Assembly: GCA_026709085.1 (NCBI GenBank)
Contig: JAPOTR010000022.1
Span: 1 to 64,000 of the forward strand
Reading direction: 5' to 3'
DNA from: Cyanobacteria bacterium MAG CAR3_bin_5
Lineage (GTDB): Bacteria; Cyanobacteriota; Cyanobacteriia; PCC-6307; Cyanobiaceae
DNA length: 64,000 nt
Part shown: positions 16,920 to 39,069 of the stretch, piece by piece
Layout: each line of letters begins with the position of its first letter
How positions within the stretch are numbered: position 1 is the first letter of the stretch
Made by a program: the position numbers and the translations under genes
The notes under the pieces: generated by a model
The model's database searches: none
Seen by the model: only the letters and a program-made list of their open reading frames with translations
What the model was told of the DNA's origin: nothing

Positions 16920-17836
16920 CCGTAGCTATGAAGGCCAACGCCAAGAAGATTGACGCCGATGTAACAGATCACCACCACCACGAATCCGGAGGCGGCCAGC
17001 ACGGCTGAGCGACGACCATGCCAGCCCCGGTTCAGCCGGGTGTGCAGATAGGCAGCATACACCAGCCAGCAGATGAGCGCCCAGGTTTCCTTGGGATCCC
17101 AACTCCACCAACTGCCCCAAGCCTCATTGGCCCATACCGCACCACTGATGATGCCAATGGAGAGCAGCAGGAAGCCAACGGTGATGGTGCGGTAGCTCAG
17201 GTTGTCCAGTCGCTCGGCCTGGCTGAAGGTTTCGCTGGTGAGACCGGTGGAATTGTCCCCCATGGCCATGGTGGGCGTACGCAAGCCGCCGCTGCCGATG
17301 GAACTCCCCCGAATGGCCACGGCTTGATCCCGGTTCACCAGCAGCACGCCCACCGCCAGGGCAGACCCCACCAGCAGTGCCCCGTAGCTGGCCATAATCA
17401 CGCTCACATGCATCACCAGCCAACTGGAGCGCAGGGCCGGCACCAGGGAGTTGGCCGTCTGCAGGGACGAGGGCAAGGCAAAGGAAGCAAAGGCCAAGGT
17501 CCCCAGGGCCAGGGGTGTGGTCAATGCGGGAATCCAGGCATGGTGGGAGATGCGCATCAGCAGCAACTGGGTAAAGCTGGCGCACCAACTGAGAAAGCAC
17601 AGCGACTCGTAAAGGTTGCTCACCGGAAAATGACCTGTGTCCATCCAGCGGCGCAGCAGCAACGCCGCCAGGAACAGGTTGGCGCCCGCCACAAGGGTGG
17701 TGCTCAACGGCCGGGAACGATTGCCTGCCATGAGGCCCCAGAACGCTGCGGGCAAGGCCGCCAGCAGCAATACCAGGGCTCCCAACCCCAGAATTGCGGT
17801 GAGGTTGGTCGGTGTCAATAGAGAGATGGGCATCAC
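16901..17836 (-). CDS. ccsB: System II cytochrome c biogenesis protein CcsB (CcsA/ResC family)
   Basis: Integral membrane component that carries heme to apocytochromes c in the lumen; partner of Ccs1. The 311-aa protein has about eight hydrophobic helices and the hallmark tryptophan-rich heme-handling motif [16 protein letters not shown] near residue 240, plus conserved histidines, for example in [18 protein letters not shown] and [16 protein letters not shown]. Naming varies: cyanobacterial and plastid annotations often call this protein CcsA. The start ATG at 17836 gives [12 protein letters not shown]. Confidence 0.93.
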
Positions 17837-18069
17837 CGATGCCTTATGGGAGCCTTCAGGTTAAATTGACTTCCTCCCCATCCTGAGGGGCCGGGCTTCC
17901 TTCTCGGATTCGGTGATTGCCTCCTCTTTCAGGTGGTTTCCTGCTTCACAGCCAAGTGCGGGCAAAGCCCGCCTTGACCCGAGTTCTGGAAAGCGAAGTA
18001 GGGAAATAAAGCAGGGAAATAACGCCTTCCCGCCGAACCGTTGCGTCCCACCTGCATCCATGGCCCTCA

Positions 18070-20175
18070 TCAGAACAGGAGGGAGAAGCGGAGGCCGAGG
18101 GAATGATCCACAGGGGATGTTGCGGAGTTGCGTTCTTCCCGCTCCCCCGCCAGGGCGATTTCCCAGGGTTCCATCTGGCCCTGCCGGGCATAGGGCGCCA
18201 GGGACCAGAGGATGCCGTAGCTCCTGCGATCCGGGGAGAGGGCCACTGCCACCCCTGGCGTCAAGGTGAGGCGGTCGTTGGCGGCGGGGAAGCCGTAGGC
18301 CACCTCCGCCTTGAAGCGCTGCCCGTTGCTGGCGGCTCCACCAACCCCCTGGATGACGGTGGGATTGAGGAGGGCATCCATGCCACCCGCTGCCCCGGCG
18401 CCCATGGTGTGGCCCAGGGAGAGGGAGGGACCGCGGTTGGATGCGTTGGGTTGCCATGCGAAGGATAGGGCCAAGCCCTGCTGGCGGAACTCCTGATCCG
18501 CATGGGTGAGGAGGGAGCGACCCTTCACCTCAGCGGTGATGCCCTGCTGGGGAGCGCTCCAGGCGATGCCGGCTCCCACTTCCAGCCCGAAGCCGCTTTC
18601 TGCATCACCGCCATCGTGACGGATACCGATCTCCAGCGAGGGGAGGAGGGCAGCGTCATTGGCCAGGGGGAAGGGGCGTGTGGCCTCCAACCCCAGGCGG
18701 AGGCGGGAGACGCTGCCCTCGGTGGAGGAGAGATCGTCCACCTGCTCGGTAGTGGTCTTGACGGTGAGCAGGTCAGTGGTGGTGGAGAGGCTGAAGCCGT
18801 CGGCGGCGCCATCGATGAGTAGGCCGTCCATGCCCACGGCGCCCATCACCATGCTGGTGGCGAGCTTGTACTCCCTCTTGCTCCCGTCGTCCGGTTTGAC
18901 CGAGAGGGAACCCCAGCCGTACCCGGCTACGGCCCAGACGCCCAGCCGTGGGGTGAGGGCATAGCGGCCATAGGGAAACAGGCCGAGCAGGGTGCTGCTG
19001 ATGTCTCCAGCACCATCGTTGTCGCCCTCCCCCTCGTAGCCGCCGTTGCCCCAGGAGTGGGAGAGGGCGGCACCGGCGTGCCAGCGCTCCGTGCGCCAGT
19101 CCGCCCCCAACAGGGCGGTGCTCACGTCCCCATGAAGGGAGAAAGCCTCCTGTCCACGGAAGGAGGAGAGCGCCCCTTGACCCCACAGCGAGAACCGGGC
19201 TGTTCCTTCCCCGTGCTCCGGCCCTTGCTCTACTGCTATCTCGGGGGAGAAGGAGAAGGAAGAACCCTGCGCCAGTTGCTGGCCGCTGACAGTCTCGAAG
19301 CCCAACAGTTTGGATAAGGCCCCTTCGTTCTCCGCCAACGCTGTGGCGCCGGTCAGGTCTTCCCCCGCCACGGTGATGTTCAGGCCCGCTTGGGGATTGG
19401 CGCTGAAGCGGTCCTGCACGGCATCCACCACCTGCTGCGCCACGGTGCGGCCAAAGCGCACCTGCCAGGCCTGCACGGCCTCGGTGACGCCGCCCGCGGG
19501 TTCTTCGATGATCCGGCCATGGACCTCGAACGTGGGGATGATGCTATTAACCCGCCAAGCCCCAACAACAAAGGCCCTGACAGTATCGGCAATGCTCCAG
19601 CCAGTGACTCCGGGTTGGCCTGTTGAGGAAGTATATTGGTATTCCATTCCATCACTGCGAGTGGTTACCCCGTCGTTCAACGAGAGGAAGTAGGTCGTAT
19701 TGGCCGCCAGGGTGATATCGGCCGGGGCGGTGAAGCTGTTCTGTGCGTTGAGGGTGAAAGTGGATGGATTGTTGAGCGTCGCTATGATGGCGCCGGTCGG
19801 GTCCGTGGTGCTACCGTCCCGGATCCTGACCACCGGGGGGGCAGCAGGGGCTGCCTGAACAATCAGGCGCACCTCCGTCAAGGTGACGGCTGAACTTCCC
19901 GTGGTGAACTTTACTCCAATGCGCAGATTGGTTGAGTCATCGTCGACCTCCGCCGTACCGCTATTGCCGACAAGGGTCTGCACCGTCTGGGCCTGAGCGG
20001 CGGGGGCCAGCGCCAGCAGCAGCGGCAGGGCCACCGGCGCAGCGGCAAGGAACGACGGTGGCCCAAGGCTCAGCAGCGCCGAGGCCAGAGCAGAAGCCAA
20101 CCCCCGCCCCAGGCGTTGGTCGGTGGAATCAAGAGAGGCAGGCCGTAGCGCCCCACTTGGAGGAGGCCCTACCAT
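18070..20175 (-). CDS. Choice-of-anchor R domain plus autotransporter-type outer-membrane beta-barrel protein
   Basis: Outer-membrane protein of 701 aa from ATG 20175 (a GTG six codons earlier is possible). A long basic leader precedes a hydrophobic signal ending APAAQAQ (about residue 62). Residues about 65-215 form a beta-rich passenger resembling the choice-of-anchor R domain (VGNSGTAEVDDDS, NLRIGVKFTTGSS, NTTYFLSLNDGV). After a linker helix (VQAWQVRFGRTVAQQVVDAVQDRFS) comes an autotransporter barrel of roughly 400 residues with amphipathic strands, ending in the outer-membrane signal LGLRFSLLF. It is GC-rich like the genome. An octamer repeat and a consensus -10 box lie just upstream, hinting at switchable expression. 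Confidence 0.82.
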   Translation of the reverse strand: MVGPPPSGALRPASLDSTDQRLGRGLASALASALLSLGPPSFLAAAPVALPLLLALAPAAQAQTVQTLVGNSGTAEVDDDSTNLRIGVKFTTGSSAVTLTEVRLIVQAAPAAPPVVRIRDGSTTDPTGAIIATLNNPSTFTLNAQNSFTAPADITLAANTTYFLSLNDGVTTRSDGMEYQYTSSTGQPGVTGWSIADTVRAFVVGAWRVNSIIPTFEVHGRIIEEPAGGVTEAVQAWQVRFGRTVAQQVVDAVQDRFSANPQAGLNITVAGEDLTGATALAENEGALSKLLGFETVSGQQLAQGSSFSFSPEIAVEQGPEHGEGTARFSLWGQGALSSFRGQEAFSLHGDVSTALLGADWRTERWHAGAALSHSWGNGGYEGEGDNDGAGDISSTLLGLFPYGRYALTPRLGVWAVAGYGWGSLSVKPDDGSKREYKLATSMVMGAVGMDGLLIDGAADGFSLSTTTDLLTVKTTTEQVDDLSSTEGSVSRLRLGLEATRPFPLANDAALLPSLEIGIRHDGGDAESGFGLEVGAGIAWSAPQQGITAEVKGRSLLTHADQEFRQQGLALSFAWQPNASNRGPSLSLGHTMGAGAAGGMDALLNPTVIQGVGGAASNGQRFKAEVAYGFPAANDRLTLTPGVAVALSPDRRSYGILWSLAPYARQGQMEPWEIALAGEREERNSATSPVDHSLGLRFSLLF

Positions 20176-20200
20176 GACCCCACCCCCGTCCACAGGTCGG

Positions 20201-20243
20201 GCGCTCCTGCGCTCCTGCGCTCCTGCGCTCCTGCGCTCCTGCG
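20201..20243 (-). repeat. Tandem octamer repeat in the autotransporter leader
   Basis: Five perfect copies of the 8-bp unit GCGCTCCT, plus a partial copy, lie between a TATAAT box and the autotransporter start codon. On the coding strand each unit reads AGGAGCGC and so contains an AGGAG Shine-Dalgarno-like core. Because eight is not a multiple of three and the array sits in the leader, copy-number change would alter promoter-to-start spacing rather than the protein. Confidence 0.9.
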
Positions 20244-20278
20244 ATTATAGCACCAATCGGCCGGTTCCCCCTTGTCAA
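20244..20278 (-). promoter_or_regulatory. Candidate promoter of the autotransporter gene
   Basis: On the minus strand a perfect TATAAT (complement of 20244-20249) lies immediately upstream of the octamer array, with a perfect TTGACA (complement of 20273-20278) further upstream. Their spacing is 23 bases, longer than the usual 16-18, so the TTGACA may not be the true -35. Transcription would begin inside the repeat array. Confidence 0.45.
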
Positions 20279-20468
20279 GTCCCCAGGGTCACTTTTCTCT
20301 TTGGCACAGCCCAACGGCCCCACATCACGAGCGGCAGCGGTTCCTTTCCCGCGGCCGGGTGGATGTTCGCTTCTCAACCGGGTCATTGCCTTGCTCCAGC
20401 AGCTTTTACGCAGACGGGGCTGGCCGCCGCTTTCAGCAGCAGCCCCACAGCAGCCAGCTTCTCCCTGC

Positions 20469-20482
20469 GGGGGGGGGGGGGG
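20469..20482. repeat. 14-base poly-G tract
   Basis: An uninterrupted run of 14 G lies in the 540-base gap between the autotransporter promoter and the murF end. It is not in an evident real gene: open frames cross it on both strands but have low-complexity, unconvincing sequence. Runs this long are slippage-prone. Apart from this tract, the octamer array and the promoter, I see no gene in 20194-20734. Confidence 0.85.
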
Positions 20483-20734
20483 CAGTAGTACCTTTGTTCC
20501 AGGCCATCGAGGAGGTTGCCAGCAGGCAGAGGATGACGTCATCCTACCCGGATCCGCGGCCAATAGCAAGCAGCCAGGAGGCGCGCCGGGATCCCAACCA
20601 CACTCCCACCTTATCCGGAATCGGGGTCCGTCTTGCCTTCGGCTCCACAGGCGTTTAACGACGTGGCGAGCCCCGCCGCGGCGGCTGGCGCTGAGGCTCG
20701 ATTTTCAGACCGGCCCTCTGGGTGTAGCCCATTT

Positions 20735-22144
20735 TCAGGGGATGGGTTCCTGGGCCTGGGCCTGGGCAGAGTTCAGTTGGGCTTGCAGAAGGGGAATGAG
20801 CCGCTCCAGGGCGATACCGCGGCTGGCTTTCAGCAGCAGGTGATCACCGGGCTTCAGCCATGCCAGCAGGTGGTTCAGGGCGGCCCGGGGTTCACCCACC
20901 TGCACCACGGGCAGCATCCGGCCTGCGCCAGCCGCCAAAGCATCCCCCAGCGGACCGTCATCCACCACCACCAGCCCGTCAAAGCCTCGCCGGCCCACAT
21001 GCCGGCCAATGCGCTGATGCCAGGCCTGGCCAAAGGATCCCAACTCCAGCATGGGGCCCAACACGGCAAAGTGTCGCCCCTGCTGTTCCGCCACCATATC
21101 CGTGGTGGCCAGCACAGCCTCCGGAGAGGCGTTGTAGGTCTCGTCCCAGAGGGTGACGGAGCCCAGCAGCAGTTGACGGGCCCGGCCCCCTGGAAGTCGC
21201 ACCTGGTTCAGGTGACGGTTCTCGGGCATGGCGCCCAGATGCTCTGCGCACGCCAGGGCCAGCATCAGGTTGCGGGCCTGGTGGGCCCCCGGCAGGGGCA
21301 GACGCCAACAGCGCCCCCCCAGGCGCAGTTCATTCCCCTGCAGTTGGCCGTATTGGTCCGCCGGGGGTAGATCGGAGGGGAAGGCGTCACCCCTCAGGGC
21401 CACGCGATGGACCGGGCCCTGCCAACTGGCCGCCAGGCTGGTTTCCAGGAGGCGATCCCCGGCCGGGACCACCACCAGCCCTGTACCGGCCAGAGCCGTG
21501 GTGACCTCGCATTTGGCGGCGGCGATGGCCTCGCGGCTGCCAAGACGGCCGATGTGGGCTGAACCGATGTTGGTAATCACCGCCAGATCCGGTTCTGCAC
21601 AACGGCTCAGTTCAGCGATTTCTCCCGGCCCCCGCATGGCCATCTCCACCACCATGGCGGCCACGGTTTCATCCGCCGTCAGGATGGTGCGGGGGACGCC
21701 AATCCCGTTGTTTTCATTCTCCTGGCTGGCATGGATGACGCCCAGGTGCGCCAACAGGGCTTTGATCAGTTCTCGCGTCGTGGTTTTGCCCGCGGATCCC
21801 GTCACCGCCACCAGGGGCAAGCCCAACTGCCGGCGCCAAGCCCGGGCAAGATTCTGGTGGGCCTGGTGGGTGTCCGCCACCGGCAGCAGGGGCAAGGGGG
21901 GATGCCGGGGCGCCGCCGCGGCGTCCACAATGGCGGCGCACGCCCCTCGCGCCGCCGCTGCCGTCAGGTAGTCATGCCCATCAAAGCTCTCACCCCGGAG
22001 CGCCAGGAACAACTCCCCGGGCCGTAGCCGTCGGCTATCGGTGCTGATGCCCCGGCCGGGGCTCCGGAGGGAGGAGACCGGGGAGATGGGGCAGCCCAGA
22101 ATCCGGGCACAGTCTGCTGGGGAGAATGAGCAGGGCACGACCAA
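20735..22144 (-). CDS. murF: UDP-N-acetylmuramoyl-tripeptide--D-alanyl-D-alanine ligase MurF
   Basis: Last cytoplasmic step of the peptidoglycan precursor, adding D-Ala-D-Ala to UDP-MurNAc-tripeptide. The 469-aa product has the Mur ligase N-domain (ISTDSRRLRPGELFLALRGESFDGHDYL), the ATP loop VTGSAGKTTTRELI, the central ENNGIGVPRTIL and the C-terminal DETYNASPEAVLATTDM. The first codon is uncertain: TTG at 22144, or GTG at 22138. It lies 17 bases downstream of ispD on the same strand. Confidence 0.95.
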   Translation of the reverse strand: MVVPCSFSPADCARILGCPISPVSSLRSPGRGISTDSRRLRPGELFLALRGESFDGHDYLTAAAARGACAAIVDAAAAPRHPPLPLLPVADTHQAHQNLARAWRRQLGLPLVAVTGSAGKTTTRELIKALLAHLGVIHASQENENNGIGVPRTILTADETVAAMVVEMAMRGPGEIAELSRCAEPDLAVITNIGSAHIGRLGSREAIAAAKCEVTTALAGTGLVVVPAGDRLLETSLAASWQGPVHRVALRGDAFPSDLPPADQYGQLQGNELRLGGRCWRLPLPGAHQARNLMLALACAEHLGAMPENRHLNQVRLPGGRARQLLLGSVTLWDETYNASPEAVLATTDMVAEQQGRHFAVLGPMLELGSFGQAWHQRIGRHVGRRGFDGLVVVDDGPLGDALAAGAGRMLPVVQVGEPRAALNHLLAWLKPGDHLLLKASRGIALERLIPLLQAQLNSAQAQAQEPIP

Positions 22145-31209: not shown

Positions 31210-34200
31210 CTAAAGTTCAAATCTCTCATCCATGGGCAGAGGCTCTGTTTCCAGGGCTTCCGCCTGTGCGCTATCATGGATGATGAGGTTCTCTTCCGGG
31301 TTCTTCCGGTCTTGCTCAGGCTCGTCTTCTGTGCTGTTCTGCTCCTGGGGAAGAGCCTCTGAAGGGAGCACTGTGTCCACCAGATCGTTGGAGTCACCCG
31401 GGCGTGTCAAGACAGCGGGACTGATGCCGGTGTCGTCAATCCGGCGGCGAGCTTTACGAAGCTGCTCATCTGATGGGTCGTCCAGAACAGGGGCAGCGTG
31501 GCTGGACACAGGAATCTCAACCGTGTAGTCTGGCCGTAAACTAGATAAGCGACGGTAGCCGGTTTGATCATCATCGAGAATATCAGGATGGGGGCCAGCC
31601 TCATCCTGCAATTGATCATCAAAGCCATCAAAGCCTGTGCCAGCAGGAATCAGACGACCAATGATCACGTTCTCCTTCAGGCCACGGAGTAAGTCGCTTT
31701 TGCCCTCGATTGCCGCTTCCGTCAACACCCGCGTGGTTTCCTGGAAACTGGCGGCAGAGATAAAGCTATCGGTATTGAGAGAGGCCTTGGTAATCCCCAG
31801 GAGCAGGGGAGAGAACTGGGCTTGCATTCCACCAGTGACAGCGATGGCTGCATTGGTTTTGGCCACCTGGGACAGCTCAACCAGCTCCCCAGGAAGGAGA
31901 GTGGTATCTCCAGCATCTTCAATCCGCACCTTACTGGTCATTTGGCGCACGATTACTTCAATATGCTTGTTGTCAATGGTGACCCCCTGGGACCGATAGA
32001 CCGACTGCACCGCGTCCACTAGACGCTGCTGCACAGTGGCAATGGCTCCTTGGGCAGCTTCCATCATGGATTGACGACGGCGCAGCAAGTCCTTGAAGTG
32101 AATCTCCAGGAGTTCATGGGAATTGATCGGTCCATCGGTTAACGCACTTCCCGCCTGAACCTGATGACCATCCGAAACCATGACATTGCGCCCCAAGGGA
32201 ATGTCGTAAACATGAACACGGTCGTCTTCCATCATCATAGGCTCAGCTACAACAGGCATCTCTGTAGAGGCGGGAACCTTCATCTGTCGAACCAATTCAA
32301 TGAGTTCGCTTTTCTTGAGGATGCTCAGGGGTGGAGATGGAGGAAGAATCCCTACCTGGCTCAGCTTTTGACAAAGTTCTACCTTCCTGGCAGCCTGACT
32401 CTGCTGTGACAATGGCTTCAAGCCATGTTCCTTGCAAAGTTTCTGTAGTGTCTTGATGGATTGTCGCTCAAGACTTGGCCTAAAGAAGGTTGAAGCCTTC
32501 TTCCCTTTCGGGTCAAGCTGGTGCGCAAGCTGTACAAGCTGGTGCTTGTCTAAATCCTCCAGAGGTTGTGGCGGAGCTTGCACACCAGCATCCTTCAGAG
32601 CTGCACAAAGCGCCAACTTGTCGAGCTTAGAATAAGCTCTTAACCCATTGTCCTTACAATACTTTTTGAGTTGCCGAGATGATTGACCATCAAAACTACC
32701 TTCCAGAAAGACTGCTCGTTTCTCCTGAGAGGAATCAATCTCATTGATAAAAGCGGTGATATTCTTTTCCTTTTGTGTTTCAATCGAGGGAGCTTGCATG
32801 GAAACACCCGCGTCCTTCAGGTATCGAATCAAGATGGCTTTTTTCCCTTTTTCCTTAGGAGAAGTGATGTGAATATTATGTTTTTTACTCAGTTTTTCCA
32901 GATCAGCAAGTGTTTGTCGATTCAAGTCGCCCTTCAGCAAGTCCCTGCGCTGCTCACCAGCAGGATCCAGTTTCTCCACAAGGTCAATCAGTTGGTCAGC
33001 CTTGAGATCCTGTAATGCTGGGGGCGGAGCCGTGACGCCAGCACGCTCCAGCCTGTGGCAGATCTCTGGTTTTTTCCATGAGGTGTAGCCCTTCAGGCCG
33101 TGCTGGCGGCAAAGGTCTTGCAGGTTCTTCACCATCATCGCGTTCAATTCGCCCACACCCAGTAGTGCTGTCTTATGCTGATCCTCGCTCCATGGCGCCG
33201 GCCTGCTGACTTTGGCTGTTCCCCCAAACATGCTGTAATCTGACGAGATGTCATAGGAGCCATCCCCTTGCTGCTCTTCAATGATCTTGACCGAAACCTC
33301 TTCGTCTTCACTGACTTCCAGCTTCACACGTCCTGAACTCTGACACAGGACGGAAGCATCGCGAGGCCGACGGGCTTCAAGCAATTCTTCGATGCGAGGC
33401 AGACCTTGCACAATATCACCCGTTTTGGCGCGTTCAAACACCAGCAGAGCGAGGGCATCACCGCGCTGCACCAAGCCACCATCCCGAACGTGAAGAATGG
33501 ATTCCGGAGAGACCATATAGGGGCGGCCGACTCGGAGACGCAGCCAGCCTGGACGGATGGCTTCCACCACACCACTGGTGGGGGAAGTGGTATGAACTTC
33601 TCCAAGCATCACAATGCCGGATCGTCTCGTCTTCACTCCCCGAGCCAGCATGTCGCCACTCTGGACATATTGCCCTTGCTGGACTTCAAGAGGGCCTTGG
33701 TTGCGGTCAACTTGATAAATCTCTTGAGACAAAGAATTAATCAAAAGAGCAGAACCCTGAGGAGTATCTACAGACTGAACATAAGTCAATACATCTGTAA
33801 TGAGATTGTCTGCCAGAATCATGCCCGGATTAACCAACATACCTTTGCGGAAATGCCTTAGAATATTCTGATTGTCGCAAAGATGCTGCTCTCCAGAAAG
33901 AATGGTAATGCTGTTATCTGTAAGAACTGCTACACCGTCTATTTGGCTTGTGATGGGGGCTTTGGTCAGCTGTGTTCCAGGATCTATCCATTGCCCATTA
34001 GTAATAGTCAAGATATCCTTGCTACTGAAAGCATAGATTTCTTCCGGCACAGCAAACTTCTCAGCCTGAACCGGGCTGAGAAGCAGGGCAGATCCGTCTG
34101 GAGTATCCACAGCCTGGACATAGATCGCTGGAGAGGGCTTCAGTTCCCTGATGAGCTGAGCCAGTTCATCTTTGTCCAATGTGTCCAGTGTCCGCGGCTC

Positions 34201-37200
34201 CGGCTGAATCCCAGCCTGGGCAAGCAGAAAACAGTACTCCTCTGCTTCACCAGGAAGTCTTAGATCATTTTCTCTGCAAAGACGCTCTAGCTCTTCCTCA
34301 CTCTGCTGATCAAAGTCCTGCTTCGAATAACCATTTTCTTTTTCGGTAGAGGAGATGAGTCTCTGATTTTGTAAAGGTATAATCTTTTCTGATATATTAG
34401 AACTTTCTAAGCATTGAATTAGTACTTGCTTGCGCAAGTGATTTGACTTAGTTAAGTTATGTTTCTCACAGAGTTCTTTTAGACGACTTACAGACTCTCT
34501 TGTAAAGTTACCTCTGAGTAACTGAGCTTGTGAACATTGCTCACCAGACGGATCCACGAACCTCTCAATAAGTATCCTCAGCTTTTCTTTGCCTGACGCT
34601 GACGTCACACCCTGGATAAGCATTTCGTTACCTGTATCAGAAAGCAAACCTTCCTGGAAGAACTCCAAAACCTGGTCGTCCTGGCACGGATGCAGTTCAC
34701 CGTTGCAAATTGTCAAGCTATGCTTATCCTGATTGACCATAACAACACCTGATAAGCCACTAGCCACATCCGGCATGATCTCTGTATTGGCCTCAATCCA
34801 CTGCCCATCAACGACCAAAGAAGGCTTTGCTTTGCTGAGATGATAGGTCTCTTGCGGGAGGGTAAACTCCTGAACAGGGCTTAGCAGCAACGCTGCACCC
34901 TCTGGTCCATCCACAGACTGGACAAAGGTGAGGGCATCAACCGTCAGATCCTGGCTCAACACATGTCCTTCCCGAACCAATTGGCCTGACTGAAAATGCT
35001 TCAAAGCCTTCTCATCGGCACAGGCATGGAGATCACCACCACGAATGGCAACCATCTGCCCAGCAGAATTGACAAGAACTTTAGCAATACCACTGATCCG
35101 GCTTGTGCTGGTCACCAACTCCGTTCCTTGGTCCGTCCACTGGCCATCGCTCACCAGCAAAGTACTTGGATGCATGGGGTAGGTTGTTTGCTGGGGAAAG
35201 GGGCTGACCAGCAAGCCAGAGCCTTCCGGGGTCTCCACAGCCTCAACGCATGTCAAGGCGTCGGCAAGCAGCTCTTCAGTGATGGGCTGCCATGGGTAGA
35301 CCAACTGTCCCTTACGAAAAGACTCACAGACATATTTATCATGGCAAAGATGTATATCACCGCTACGGATTGTCAATTGACAGTCAGGTAAGTTCTCCTG
35401 ATGCTTCACCAAGGGATCTCCTTGAACAAGACGTTCTCCTAGTTTTACATCCATAGAGATGTTTTCTGGAACTACAACGTTGAAAGTATCTGATTCCCGC
35501 TCCACAATTAATCTCCGAACAGGCTCAGCTTCGAATTCGGCTGGCTTCTTGCCTGCACCTCTTACTTCGTTATTAATCTTTTCCACTGTGGAAAGCTCAA
35601 CAACGGTATCTTTCTCCAACGGAGTATCCCAAGATCTTGTAATACGTGCCTCAATAGGAGGAATTTGCACCACACCATCTTCCTTGCAGAGAATCTGTGT
35701 TGTGGCGATAATCTGACCCGGCTTTACACGCTTTCCATCTTCTACTTTCAATTCCGTATGAGTAGAGCCATGGGTTGCATCAGATAGGGTATCGCGGCGT
35801 ACCAAAAGACTTTCCAAGATCACCATGCTGAGACGCTGGCTCTTCTTGGTGCGACCAGGCACCACTTCCACGTCGACAGTCATCTGCGGTGTTGTATCAG
35901 CAGTTTCCAGAATAACCTGGGTGCGTAGAAGCTCCACTGGCTCCACGGACTTCACCAGTTCGCCATCCTTGAACATCAAACGCTGTTGAGCTTTCAAGGT
36001 CATGGAAGGGCCTCTAGCTTTCTTAATTGACGTGGTAGCAGGAACATAAGCATTATCTGGAATGGCAAACTCTTCGACAGGGCGAAGGAGAAGAAAGGGA
36101 CTACCCTCGGATGGATTCAAAACAGACTCCACATAATGAATATCCTCAGCAACCAACTCACCTTCAATCAGCACATCTCCAGGATTAACAAGTATGCCTT
36201 CTTCGGAGAAACGCTCAAGAGCTTCTTTATGATTTGTTTTATTAACATCACAATAATATATTTTACCATTTCTTATGGTTATTTCTCTCAAGATATCATT
36301 TTTCTGAATAACTGTTACAATACCTGAAGTTTGACTGAATATATCTTTAACAACTTCAGTTCCAGTTTCAATTTCCTGATAATTCTTGATCATTAGCAAA
36401 GAAAGGTCTTTATTGATTTCATGAGTTTCTTGAGGAATCCATAGCAAGGTTCCTCCATGAGATAACTCAAAACCATGTTTATTTGAACGAGATTTTTTAA
36501 TACTTAAACCTGGACTAAATTTTACTAGACCACCGCTCTGGGTCTTGAAGCGCTCATCGCTCAGCTCAGCAATGACATCACCATGACTAACTTTATTGCC
36601 TGGATTGGTATTTAGACGATAGATCAAACCATCATCACTTTCTAAATGCCAGAGCTCACCAACATGGCTGCTCTCCTCAACTAGCTTTAAATCTTTAATT
36701 GTAAGTCTAGCCGTAACAATCTGCACTTCGCGTGAGTCACCTGTAGCATCTCGTAGACGCACATCACCACCATGTTCACTTTTTAAGCAACTTTCTGCAA
36801 GCACATCATCTTTTTGAACTGCAGAATCAGCTTCAACAACTGGCTTGGCATTCGGAGGCAAGTTATAAACGTCTCCACTGAGAACCCAGATCTTTCCTAA
36901 TCGTTGTGCTTTAACAGTAACGTTACCTTGGCGATCTGTAGCTTCCCGAGGTTGAATCTCCTTGTCATACTTGACTTGACCAGCCAAGTCACAGATAACA
37001 TCCTTGGTAGCTTTTTCAACGCTTTTCTTCACGTTGCCACCTGCAATCTGTCCTAGCACATCATCGCGATTGACAGTACTGCCGTTCTTGACAAATAGAA
37101 CAGAGCTAGAGGTGATAGAGACGCTTTGTTTCTGACCAGAAATAGATTCAACACTCAACTGGAAATCCGTTTCGGCTATATAAGCATTAATACCATGGGA

Positions 37201-39069
37201 TGTGCGGTAAGGCCGTACCCGTGCCTGATCACCAAGGCTAACAATACCAGCAATTGTCGAGCGTACAGTTCCCGTTTCTGCTGTGCTCACACCGCCGGTA
37301 TGGAAGGTGCGCATGGTAAGCTGGGTACCGGGCTCACCAATGGACTGGGCAGCCACAATGCCCACAGCTTCTCCCAGATCAACCAGCTTGTTGTGGGCCA
37401 AAGCCCAGCCATAGCAGCGGCGGCAGACGGATTTTGGTGTCTCGCAGGTGAGCGGCGAACGGACCTTCACGGCTTTAACCTGATGGGCTTCAAGCTGGGC
37501 ACTGATCTCAGCGCTAATCTCCGTATTGCGGGGCAGCAAAAGTTGTTCTTTTTTAGTGGGATAAGTATTAATTAATCCTGCAATTGGACTCAACGCACCA
37601 TTGGAAATTTCAGCATCGCGCTCAATCCATTGATTTTCCTGGACAAGAAGAGGAAAAGCATTCGTGTTAATAACATAATCAGCTTGAAGACGAAATTCAC
37701 TAAGAAATAAAGCACTATCCTGATCAGATATGATAGACCGTACATATGTGTACTGGGTTACTTTCAGACTCTTAGTTATGATATCACCTGGCTTAGCTAA
37801 TGAGCCTTTCTCAAATCGTTTTAAGATCTTTTTCTCTTTGCAAACATGCAAAGATCCCTGAAGAAGACTAACATGTAAGGTTTCATTGTTCTCACTCACA
37901 GTGACAAGTCCACGGTTGGTACTGATGATTTCCTCACTTAACTTGGTTTCTGCCTCAACCCAACTGCCGTCAGCCACTGTAAGGGAATCATCAGGTTTAA
38001 CTTTCCAGATCTTTTGAGGAAGTTCGCTGACCAGCAATGCGGACCCTTGCTGAACTTTTATGGCTTGGACAAGAGCTAGTGATGAGCTCCTCAGTTCTTC
38101 TTGTAACTCGTCTCCTGGCTGAACTAAAGTGGCCTTGCTAAAGCGTTTCAAGATTGCTTTATCATGACAGGTATATAGTTCACCACCAAGAATTGTGACA
38201 TGGGTAACTTTGAGTACTTTTGTAATATTTTCAGCCGTCAAACGCCCTACTAACTTACTTTGATAGTGTCCTTTATCATCAGCATTGATGATAATTCCTC
38301 TTTGAGTCCCACAATCTTCATCACGTACAATCATATCTTGAGCTACATCTACTAGGCGACGGGTAAGATAACCGGAGTCAGCTGTACGTAGAGCTGTGTC
38401 CACCAGACCCTTGCGAGCCCCGTAGGAGGAGATCACGTATTCTGTAACTGTCAGCCCTTCGCGAAAATTTGTCCGAATGGGCAGATCAATAATCTCTCCT
38501 TGGGGATTGGCCATGAGTCCACGCATCCCAACCAACTGTCGCACCTGGGACATGTTTCCCCTGGCGCCGGAGTTGGCCATCATCCAGACCGAATTCAGTG
38601 GATCGTTTTCTGTGAACGTCCTCTTGACAGCCTCAACAAGACGCTCATTAGTTTCTGTCCATGTATCAATCACCTTTGTATGTCGCTCTACCTCGGTAAT
38701 TTCTCCCAGCCGGTAACGCTCTTCGGTGCGGGTAATCTCTTCCTCAGCTTCATTGAGAAGCTCTTTCTTATCTTCAGGAATTCTCAGGTCATCCACAGAG
38801 ATGGAAACAGCCGCCTGAGTCGCATAGTGAAACCCCAGATCTTTCAGTTCATCAGCAATGGCTGTTGTGACTGAAGTGCCAAATTCCTTGTAGGCCCAAT
38901 CAATGAGACTACGCAGGCCTTTCTTGTCAATGACGTGATTGCGAAAGACAAGGGGAGGTTTTTCCTTTCGCTCTCCCCCGCGGATCAGGGGAGTCTCTAC
39001 ACTCAACGCAGCAATCGCCGAGCTGGCAGCAGAGGTGACGGACTTGATGGAGGCGTTGCTAGGGGTCAT
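31210..39069 (-). CDS. rpoC2: RNA polymerase beta-prime subunit RpoC2, greatly enlarged
   Basis: C-terminal half of split beta-prime. It is 2619 aa; cyanobacterial RpoC2 is usually about 1300-1370. The conserved frame is intact: N-terminal VFRNHVIDKKGLRSLIDWAY, the zinc-ribbon cysteines in CETPKSVCRRC (from about residue 542), bridge/trigger elements AAQSIGEPGTQLTMRTF-HTGGV (to about 592), GLPRIEELLEARRP after SI3 (about 1888), and DKHIEVIVRQMTSKV to the C-terminus. The extra length lies in three blocks: about residues 280-505 before the zinc ribbon, an SI3 of about 1290 aa (usually about 640), and a SAP-like array at about 1974-2262. The inserts are partly AT-rich, yet the whole frame is open, so this is probably functional. 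Last gene of rpoB-rpoC1-rpoC2. Confidence 0.95.
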   Translation of the reverse strand: MTPSNASIKSVTSAASSAIAALSVETPLIRGGERKEKPPLVFRNHVIDKKGLRSLIDWAYKEFGTSVTTAIADELKDLGFHYATQAAVSISVDDLRIPEDKKELLNEAEEEITRTEERYRLGEITEVERHTKVIDTWTETNERLVEAVKRTFTENDPLNSVWMMANSGARGNMSQVRQLVGMRGLMANPQGEIIDLPIRTNFREGLTVTEYVISSYGARKGLVDTALRTADSGYLTRRLVDVAQDMIVRDEDCGTQRGIIINADDKGHYQSKLVGRLTAENITKVLKVTHVTILGGELYTCHDKAILKRFSKATLVQPGDELQEELRSSSLALVQAIKVQQGSALLVSELPQKIWKVKPDDSLTVADGSWVEAETKLSEEIISTNRGLVTVSENNETLHVSLLQGSLHVCKEKKILKRFEKGSLAKPGDIITKSLKVTQYTYVRSIISDQDSALFLSEFRLQADYVINTNAFPLLVQENQWIERDAEISNGALSPIAGLINTYPTKKEQLLLPRNTEISAEISAQLEAHQVKAVKVRSPLTCETPKSVCRRCYGWALAHNKLVDLGEAVGIVAAQSIGEPGTQLTMRTFHTGGVSTAETGTVRSTIAGIVSLGDQARVRPYRTSHGINAYIAETDFQLSVESISGQKQSVSITSSSVLFVKNGSTVNRDDVLGQIAGGNVKKSVEKATKDVICDLAGQVKYDKEIQPREATDRQGNVTVKAQRLGKIWVLSGDVYNLPPNAKPVVEADSAVQKDDVLAESCLKSEHGGDVRLRDATGDSREVQIVTARLTIKDLKLVEESSHVGELWHLESDDGLIYRLNTNPGNKVSHGDVIAELSDERFKTQSGGLVKFSPGLSIKKSRSNKHGFELSHGGTLLWIPQETHEINKDLSLLMIKNYQEIETGTEVVKDIFSQTSGIVTVIQKNDILREITIRNGKIYYCDVNKTNHKEALERFSEEGILVNPGDVLIEGELVAEDIHYVESVLNPSEGSPFLLLRPVEEFAIPDNAYVPATTSIKKARGPSMTLKAQQRLMFKDGELVKSVEPVELLRTQVILETADTTPQMTVDVEVVPGRTKKSQRLSMVILESLLVRRDTLSDATHGSTHTELKVEDGKRVKPGQIIATTQILCKEDGVVQIPPIEARITRSWDTPLEKDTVVELSTVEKINNEVRGAGKKPAEFEAEPVRRLIVERESDTFNVVVPENISMDVKLGERLVQGDPLVKHQENLPDCQLTIRSGDIHLCHDKYVCESFRKGQLVYPWQPITEELLADALTCVEAVETPEGSGLLVSPFPQQTTYPMHPSTLLVSDGQWTDQGTELVTSTSRISGIAKVLVNSAGQMVAIRGGDLHACADEKALKHFQSGQLVREGHVLSQDLTVDALTFVQSVDGPEGAALLLSPVQEFTLPQETYHLSKAKPSLVVDGQWIEANTEIMPDVASGLSGVVMVNQDKHSLTICNGELHPCQDDQVLEFFQEGLLSDTGNEMLIQGVTSASGKEKLRILIERFVDPSGEQCSQAQLLRGNFTRESVSRLKELCEKHNLTKSNHLRKQVLIQCLESSNISEKIIPLQNQRLISSTEKENGYSKQDFDQQSEEELERLCRENDLRLPGEAEEYCFLLAQAGIQPEPRTLDTLDKDELAQLIRELKPSPAIYVQAVDTPDGSALLLSPVQAEKFAVPEEIYAFSSKDILTITNGQWIDPGTQLTKAPITSQIDGVAVLTDNSITILSGEQHLCDNQNILRHFRKGMLVNPGMILADNLITDVLTYVQSVDTPQGSALLINSLSQEIYQVDRNQGPLEVQQGQYVQSGDMLARGVKTRRSGIVMLGEVHTTSPTSGVVEAIRPGWLRLRVGRPYMVSPESILHVRDGGLVQRGDALALLVFERAKTGDIVQGLPRIEELLEARRPRDASVLCQSSGRVKLEVSEDEEVSVKIIEEQQGDGSYDISSDYSMFGGTAKVSRPAPWSEDQHKTALLGVGELNAMMVKNLQDLCRQHGLKGYTSWKKPEICHRLERAGVTAPPPALQDLKADQLIDLVEKLDPAGEQRRDLLKGDLNRQTLADLEKLSKKHNIHITSPKEKGKKAILIRYLKDAGVSMQAPSIETQKEKNITAFINEIDSSQEKRAVFLEGSFDGQSSRQLKKYCKDNGLRAYSKLDKLALCAALKDAGVQAPPQPLEDLDKHQLVQLAHQLDPKGKKASTFFRPSLERQSIKTLQKLCKEHGLKPLSQQSQAARKVELCQKLSQVGILPPSPPLSILKKSELIELVRQMKVPASTEMPVVAEPMMMEDDRVHVYDIPLGRNVMVSDGHQVQAGSALTDGPINSHELLEIHFKDLLRRRQSMMEAAQGAIATVQQRLVDAVQSVYRSQGVTIDNKHIEVIVRQMTSKVRIEDAGDTTLLPGELVELSQVAKTNAAIAVTGGMQAQFSPLLLGITKASLNTDSFISAASFQETTRVLTEAAIEGKSDLLRGLKENVIIGRLIPAGTGFDGFDDQLQDEAGPHPDILDDDQTGYRRLSSLRPDYTVEIPVSSHAAPVLDDPSDEQLRKARRRIDDTGISPAVLTRPGDSNDLVDTVLPSEALPQEQNSTEDEPEQDRKNPEENLIIHDSAQAEALETEPLPMDERFEL
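32283..33146 (-). repeat. Four-copy SAP-like repeat array inserted in RpoC2
   Basis: About 290 aa of four tandem units of roughly 75 residues. Consensus features are L-x2-LC-K/R-x-HGL, a K-x2-LC-x2-L-x2-AGV helix, a PPP-x-L turn, and then L-x-K-x2-L-I/V-x-L-V-x2-LDP-x-G. Examples are LQDLCRQHGLKGY, LEKLSKKHNIHITS, LKKYCKDNGLRAYS and LQKLCKEHGLKPLS. The first helix-turn-helix of each unit looks like a SAP/HeH nucleic-acid-binding motif. The array splits the region between GLPRIEELLEARRP and NVMVSDGHQVQAG, where other bacteria have a short loop. Confidence 0.85.
33406..37290 (-). other. Expanded SI3 trigger-loop insertion of RpoC2
   Basis: SI3 runs from after the trigger-loop FHTGGV to before GLPRIEELL, about 1290 aa against roughly 640 in other cyanobacteria. 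At least five copies of a module can be read in its second half. Each has a core of PEG-x-ALLLSPV-x-EF, a VVDGQWIE-x2-TE turn, an SG-I/V-V strand and a G-E/D-L/I-H-x-C segment followed by F-x2-G-x-L-V. Two SAP-like motifs (LKELCEKHNLTK, LERLCRENDLRL) interrupt the series near 34,200-34,510. The module resembles the sandwich-barrel hybrid motifs of ordinary SI3, so the growth probably came from internal duplication. Confidence 0.85.
37555..38230 (-). other. SI3-like insertion ahead of the RpoC2 zinc ribbon
   Basis: Between GRLTAENIT and LLLPRNTEISAEI, which are close neighbours in normal RpoC2, lie about 215 extra residues. They contain two copies of the same module found in SI3: GGELYTCHDKAILKRFSK with QQGSALLVSEL and VADGSWVEAETKL, then GSLHVCKEKKILKRFEKG with DSALFLSEF and ENQWIERDAEI. 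The stretch is AT-rich. It indicates an SI3 module copied to a second site in the same subunit. Confidence 0.82.

Follow-up and report, generated by a model that had tools for sequence, protein, structure and literature searches.

Pathogens are well known to carry contingency repeats. In Haemophilus influenzae hmw1A, a heptamer array overlaps the -10 element of P2, an active promoter, and sits in the 5' UTR, where more repeats give less product (PMC8262952). In cyanobacteria, heptamer arrays stand beside start codons, and 7-nt indels have been described between two Cyanothece strains; the TAACTGA repeats of Beggiatoaceae and cyanobacteria are likewise arrays of 7-bp units that lie shortly upstream of start codons, with one unit used genome-wide and no pattern in the genes they head (PMC4679880).

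We analyzed a stretch of 64,000 nucleotides of cyanobacterial DNA (contig JAPOTR010000022.1, positions 1 to 64,000; hereafter the window) that carries an octamer array ahead of a predicted surface-protein gene. The locus resembles hmw1A and hmw2A (unit ATCTTTC) in combining a short array touching a -10 element, a position in the 5' UTR and a large surface adhesin, and differs from them in unit, organism and secretion route and in that two promoters are present there; a graded effect and within-population variation are demonstrated for hmw1A/hmw2A, whereas for the cyanobacterial arrays a graded effect is only proposed (PMC8262952). The window array is most likely a slippage-driven expression dial resembling the hmw1A heptamer leader. 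We lean towards reading it as a contingency tract, phase- or rate-variable, within the 5' leader of a gene for a surface protein.

Unlike the TAACTGA repeats, arrays of the window type use several units, keep a fixed place at the -10 element and head one surface-gene family. The earlier note on this DNA had called such an array unusual for a cyanobacterium; that does not hold for heptamer arrays near start codons as such, which are described there (PMC4679880), and holds for the multi-unit, one-family layout fixed at the -10 element. The stronger part of the case, missed by that note, is that the window array belongs to a multi-locus family. Our literature search found no report combining "Synechococcus spongiarum" with "phase variation".

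The octamer array and its putative promoter context

The array, its surroundings and the gene behind it comprise the following features:

18070-20193, minus strand: open reading frame of 707 aa (GTG at 20193) or 701 aa (ATG at 20175), with C-terminal F
20201-20243, minus strand: octamer array, AGGAGCGC in mRNA sense repeated 5.4 times, a transcribed leader if the -10 element is used
20244-20249, minus strand: -10 hexamer TATAAT, with TGC at 20250-20252 giving an extended -10; the motif is observed, its promoter activity putative
20266-20292, minus strand: conserved upstream box GTGACCCTnnnnnCTTGACAAGGGGGA, containing TTGACA at 20273-20278 and found at 10 places in the genome
20469-20482, minus strand: poly-C tract of 14 on the sense strand, within a conserved upstream element
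17976-20628, minus strand: segment missing from the murF-ccsA gap in the related genome G007

Read along the minus strand, TTGACA is followed by 23 nt, TGC plus TATAAT, CGCAGGAG repeated to 43 nt, CCGACCTGTGGACGGGGGTGGGGTCATGG and the 707-aa frame, and the array begins at the base after the extended -10 element, TGcTATAAT. Tandem Repeats Finder reported the array at 20201-20243 with period 8, 5.4 copies, 100% match and a score of 86, ranking it first among the tandem repeats of the window (the next best of 39 repeats reported scores 64); all 43 nt consist of perfect AGGAGCGC copies in mRNA sense, and AGGAG is present on the mRNA strand in each copy. The longest period-8 self-match run is 35, compared with at most 13 at any period from 5 to 12 in 60 dinucleotide-preserving shuffles. 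The array is a short, perfect, multi-copy tandem array of the kind found in simple-sequence contingency loci and, by sequence position, lies where such arrays are expected, in a promoter, leader or early coding region; the promoter itself is presumably used. Both the placement of an 8-bp array with AGGAG in every copy directly behind TATAAT and its position between that hexamer and the start of the reading frame (GTG 20193 or ATG 20175, both downstream), as the earlier note had described them, were confirmed by this analysis.

TTGACA was considered as a classical -35 element and rejected, the spacer to TATAAT being 23 nt in the window and 37 nt, by count, at the paralogous site C17L. A sigma-70 scan of 17800-20800 with spacers of 16-18 nt returned 0 sites, and an Rfam search returned nothing beyond a single sub-threshold chance match.

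The downstream protein and its family

The window protein has a signal-peptide-like N-terminus (by eye, a hydrophobic stretch ending in AQAQT), a choice-of-anchor R match at residues 86-226 (7.9e-24) and a helix plus 18-strand barrel at about residues 231-707. A sequence search of the PDB with E up to 1 recovered no relative of it, and the protein itself has no Pfam match. Among 25 aligned relatives, window protein included, OMP_b-brl was found in 14 and Autotransporter (PF03797) in 3, the best at 7.2e-14; the window member matches neither. In a structural model of the C-terminal part built from 25 sequences (m1fc401425094, 477 aa, pLDDT 78), a helix at residues 3-34 precedes 18 strands, a count that includes weak stretches; the full-length model is weaker (pLDDT 58). 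The first 14 matches in the VIA fold comparison were autotransporter domains, led by NalP (Z 18.6, rmsd 5.2, 231 aligned residues). The predicted model thus shows the C-terminal outer-membrane barrel after a helix that characterizes type Va secretion, and in this it resembles the translocator domains of NalP, EspP, Hbp and AIDA-I, its best fold matches. The classical autotransporter domain is a barrel of 12 strands, whereas 18 are predicted for the window protein, which also lacks the Pfam Autotransporter match. The product of the window gene is probably secreted and, on the predicted structure, carries an autotransporter-like barrel; the outer-membrane autotransporter proposed earlier behind the leader array is borne out in this form by the model and the VIA matches.

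The barrel belongs to a very large, partly decayed surface-protein family, with 83 matches each, fragments included, in the window genome (G000) and G003, and members in 9 of the 10 genus genomes. Many matches in G000 and G003 lie at contig ends or contain stop codons. Frames headed by arrays elsewhere contain fn3 (on C4 and on contig C25 of G007) and Calx-beta (on C4), and the products downstream of arrays look secreted and adhesive. Several features of these loci count against an expression dial: no long barrel frame stands behind the arrays on C63 and C64, the array-headed frame on C4 is 417 aa long in a copy that looks degraded, and contig ends cut C17L, C60L, C15R, C53R and C17R before a readable gene.

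Array sites and their turnover

The genome that contains the window comprises 67 contigs and 2.37 Mb; searched with 181 bases spanning the array, it yielded 13 matches. The upstream box pattern GTGACCCTnnnGnCTTGACAAGGGnGA occurs at 10 places in this genome, once exactly in G007 and, with three mismatches, twice in G003 (C89 and C122), that is, in 3 of the 10 genus genomes. Altogether we considered 15 array sites, 10 in the window genome, 1 in G007, 3 in G003 and 1 in G009; G000:C43, a decayed module with one unit, and the two 3-mismatch places in G003 are not among them. At all 15 sites, in four species, a -10-like hexamer is present and the perfect run starts between -5 and +2 nt relative to its final base; TGN precedes the hexamer at 11 of them.

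The sites carry 1.4 to at least 18.8 copies and use six distinct unit spellings, besides the one-base variant AGGAGCCC. In the window genome, AGGAGCGC makes up the arrays on C8 (the window locus), C4, C53R, C16 and C63 and stands as one unit on C64; C17R combines AGGAGCCC with AGGAGCGC, C17L and C60L use CAGAAGAT, and C15R uses CAGAAGGT. Elsewhere we found the heptamer GGAAGCA in G007, (AGGAATGC) with at least 16.4 copies on G003:C67, (AGGATCGC)2 followed by (AGGAGCGC)16 on G003:C68 (18.8 copies in total, running to the contig end), (AGGATCGC)5.1 on G003:C145 and 3.1 copies of AGGAGCGC on G009:C51. A scan for AGRA every 8 nt, five times over, matched 5 of 300 family genomes, namely G000, G003 and G001 among the 10 genus members and 2 among the other 290; the G001 match stands in another context, and a reversed-pattern control gives no contrast for such a scan because AGGA reads the same backwards. 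Arrays in G090 and G314 were left out of the counts because the -10 or barrel context was absent by eye. In G004, G005, G006 and G008 the barrel family is present and arrays were undetected with the patterns used, which counts against the dial. About 12 copies of (AGGAGAGC) on G001:C137, in coding-looking DNA of a genus member with no barrel match, were also left out of the counts.

Copy number differs between closely related copies, these being paralogues within one genome; the comparison set holds one genome per species. Between paralogues, both copy number and unit sequence turn over rapidly. C8 and C17R are 96% identical upstream and carry five uniform units versus seven in two blocks (four AGGAGCCC plus three AGGAGCGC); C17R and C63 are also 96% identical upstream, with arrays differing in copy number, unit or both. 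C17L and C15R share 95% of their upstream sequence and differ in every visible unit (CAGAAGAT versus CAGAAGGT), whereas C16 and C64, 90% identical, carry 3.6 and 1.4 copies. C8 and C4, 77% identical upstream, have equal arrays of 5.4 copies each. Variant units sit in blocks (4+3 on C17R, 2+16 on G003:C68), an arrangement explained by one substitution followed by unit duplication and not by repeated independent substitution; such blocks are what slipped-strand duplication would predict. The differences among paralogues could be old, which counts against the dial.

Half of the multi-copy arrays (7 of 14) are no more than 48 nt away from a contig end, which would be expected of arrays longer than the assembler's word. 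Several stop at 52-57 nt, which looks like the assembler word length, so that the true copy numbers there are at least those given. The arrays thus coincide with assembly breaks, and short-read genomes of the group tend to split these genes.

Passive slippage debris is an unlikely but serious alternative, in which arrays drift in weakly constrained leaders without an effect on expression and their common layout is inherited from a duplicated ancestral promoter. Most copies in the window genome are indeed homologous (upstream identity 63-96%) and so not independent, some downstream genes are degraded, and folding predicts no effect. However, differently spelled units recur at one position beside the -10 element, and drift alone fails to explain why the arrays start there every time. 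Furthermore, the layout is retained at G003:C67, G003:C68 and G009:C51, where the upstream sequence, by eye, bears no obvious relation to the module, which implies that the promoter sequence is less durable than the array layout.

The poly-C tract is part of a conserved element, AGAACAAAGnTACTACTGC(C)nGCAGG, roughly 220 nt upstream of the -10 hexamer; across 10 sites it has 14 residues at the window site, about 11-13 at several others and 4, or an interrupted run, at still others, which makes it a candidate second slippery tract. The same element also occurs at the left end of contig C55.

Start codons, ribosome pairing and a proposed dial

GTG 20193, 7 nt past the last full unit, opens the 707-aa frame, and ATG 20175, 25 nt past it, opens the 701-aa frame. 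The latter is the more likely start; on C16, the frame equivalent to that of GTG 20193 has an ATG start and stops after four codons. The last AGGAG lies about 28 nt from the conserved ATG, which counts against the dial and is too distant for an immediate Shine-Dalgarno sequence of that codon; AGGAG could possibly serve as one if GTG 20193 were used. It is unlikely that the AGGAG copies act as the immediate ribosome site. Against the tail of the organism's own 16S rRNA (...GGATCACCTCCT), AGGAG units pair in the sense strand at -6.6 kcal/mol and the other units at -1.5 to -5.9 kcal/mol, with two controls above 0 kcal/mol; the weak pairing of the CAGAAGAT unit again counts against the dial. In the window leader, predicted start-codon accessibility is independent of copy number beyond two, and in three other leaders copy number hardly alters it. 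Sequestration of the start codon by the array therefore has no support from predicted folding and, since no copy-number switch is predicted, a graded effect is favored.

Under the favored reading of a contingency tract, RNA polymerase would use the extended -10 element and start inside the first unit, and the mRNA would open with repeats. Slipped-strand mispairing would gain or lose 8-nt units and alter both the leader length and the sequence transcribed first, while the position of the -10 element and the spacing between the last unit and the start would stay constant. Copy number would also set the count of AGGAG standby sites upstream of the start and, given their pairing with the anti-Shine-Dalgarno sequence, the array may collect ribosomes there. 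The amount of autotransporter would accordingly change stepwise rather than on or off, and many such genes switching independently could produce mixed sets of surface proteins among the cells of one population.

It is improbable that the repeats form a fixed multi-site leader, serving as ribosome standby or translational-regulator sites with copy number not being the switch. AGGA, GGAAG or AGAAG cores do lie on the sense strand in all arrays and most pair with the 16S tail, and a similar idea has been proposed for the TAACTGA heptamers near start codons (PMC4679880), but copy numbers span the whole range given above, the unit sequence is unconserved and CAGAAGAT pairs weakly.

The locus itself is variably present. 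The ccsA protein of G007 is 96% identical; in that genome murF adjoins ccsA and the 2.65-kb segment 17976-20628 is missing, which removed G007 as a source of an orthologous array. A similar 8-nt sequence, CAAG(A/G)CGG, occurs at both junctions (CAAGACGG and CAAGGCGG), and an insertion in the window genome and a deletion in G007 are indistinguishable. No barrel was found in the ccsA flanks of eight other relatives, in which at most 1.5 kb was examined. A flank at the murF-ccsA junction resembles a dispersed sequence also found near the left end of C16. We consider it very improbable that module and array act as a crossover zone through which paralogues swap promoters and signal peptides and new passengers enter expressed sites: some pairs show 90-96% identity over module and upstream DNA, the entire locus is absent in G007 and passengers vary from copy to copy, but the pure arrays with private spellings (CAGAAGAT, CAGAAGGT) favor local expansion over exchange.

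A second octamer class was identified at contig ends of the window genome, of which 67 left ends (those of 10 short contigs reading N) and 54 right ends, excepting the same 10 contigs and C65-C67, were read. Four left ends (C10, C16, C29 and C53) break off within (ACACCAGC)n, an array that a pattern search found nowhere else in the genome. The ends of C16 and C29 look like 5' halves, with the array 31 or 73 nt past an ATG in an open frame, whereas those of C53 and C10 look like 3' halves, with one frame of three open (277 aa and 127 aa, respectively). The 277-aa frame has a weak, below-cut-off alpha/beta hydrolase match, and its product is perhaps a secreted alpha/beta hydrolase. The ACACCAGC arrays apparently lie inside the coding starts of two genes and are candidate translational on/off tracts.

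Returning to the contingency reading, we tentatively suggest, with somewhat less than even confidence, that this cyanobacterial genus has a phasome comprising a large family of autotransporter-like and fibronectin/Calx-beta-type surface genes with hypermutable 7-8-bp arrays at their mRNA starts, plus at least two genes with octamers at the coding start. If so, the former would be graded dials, each locus being free to evolve its own unit, and the latter on/off switches, together forming a contingency-locus system in an oxygenic phototroph; to our knowledge, such phasomes are otherwise known from animal pathogens. The cyanobacterium may live with a host, symbiosis having been proposed in the earlier note. 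If the arrays vary within one host, this would amount to pathogen-style surface bet-hedging by a cyanobacterium, perhaps in dealing with host cells or phages. The many paralogous loci, alike in layout and varied in spelling, would also offer a natural experiment on the birth and replacement of contingency tracts.

Two side observations concern other sequences. The upstream module had 0 matches among viral contigs, and a long array of the window octamer stands in unrelated context on the IMG/VR viral contig IMGVR_UViG_3300025030_000105, perhaps by coincidence. Within the window, the minus strand at 31210-39069 carries a 2619-aa open reading frame with RNA polymerase Rpb1 domains, which is probably the ordinary large second beta-prime subunit of cyanobacteria.
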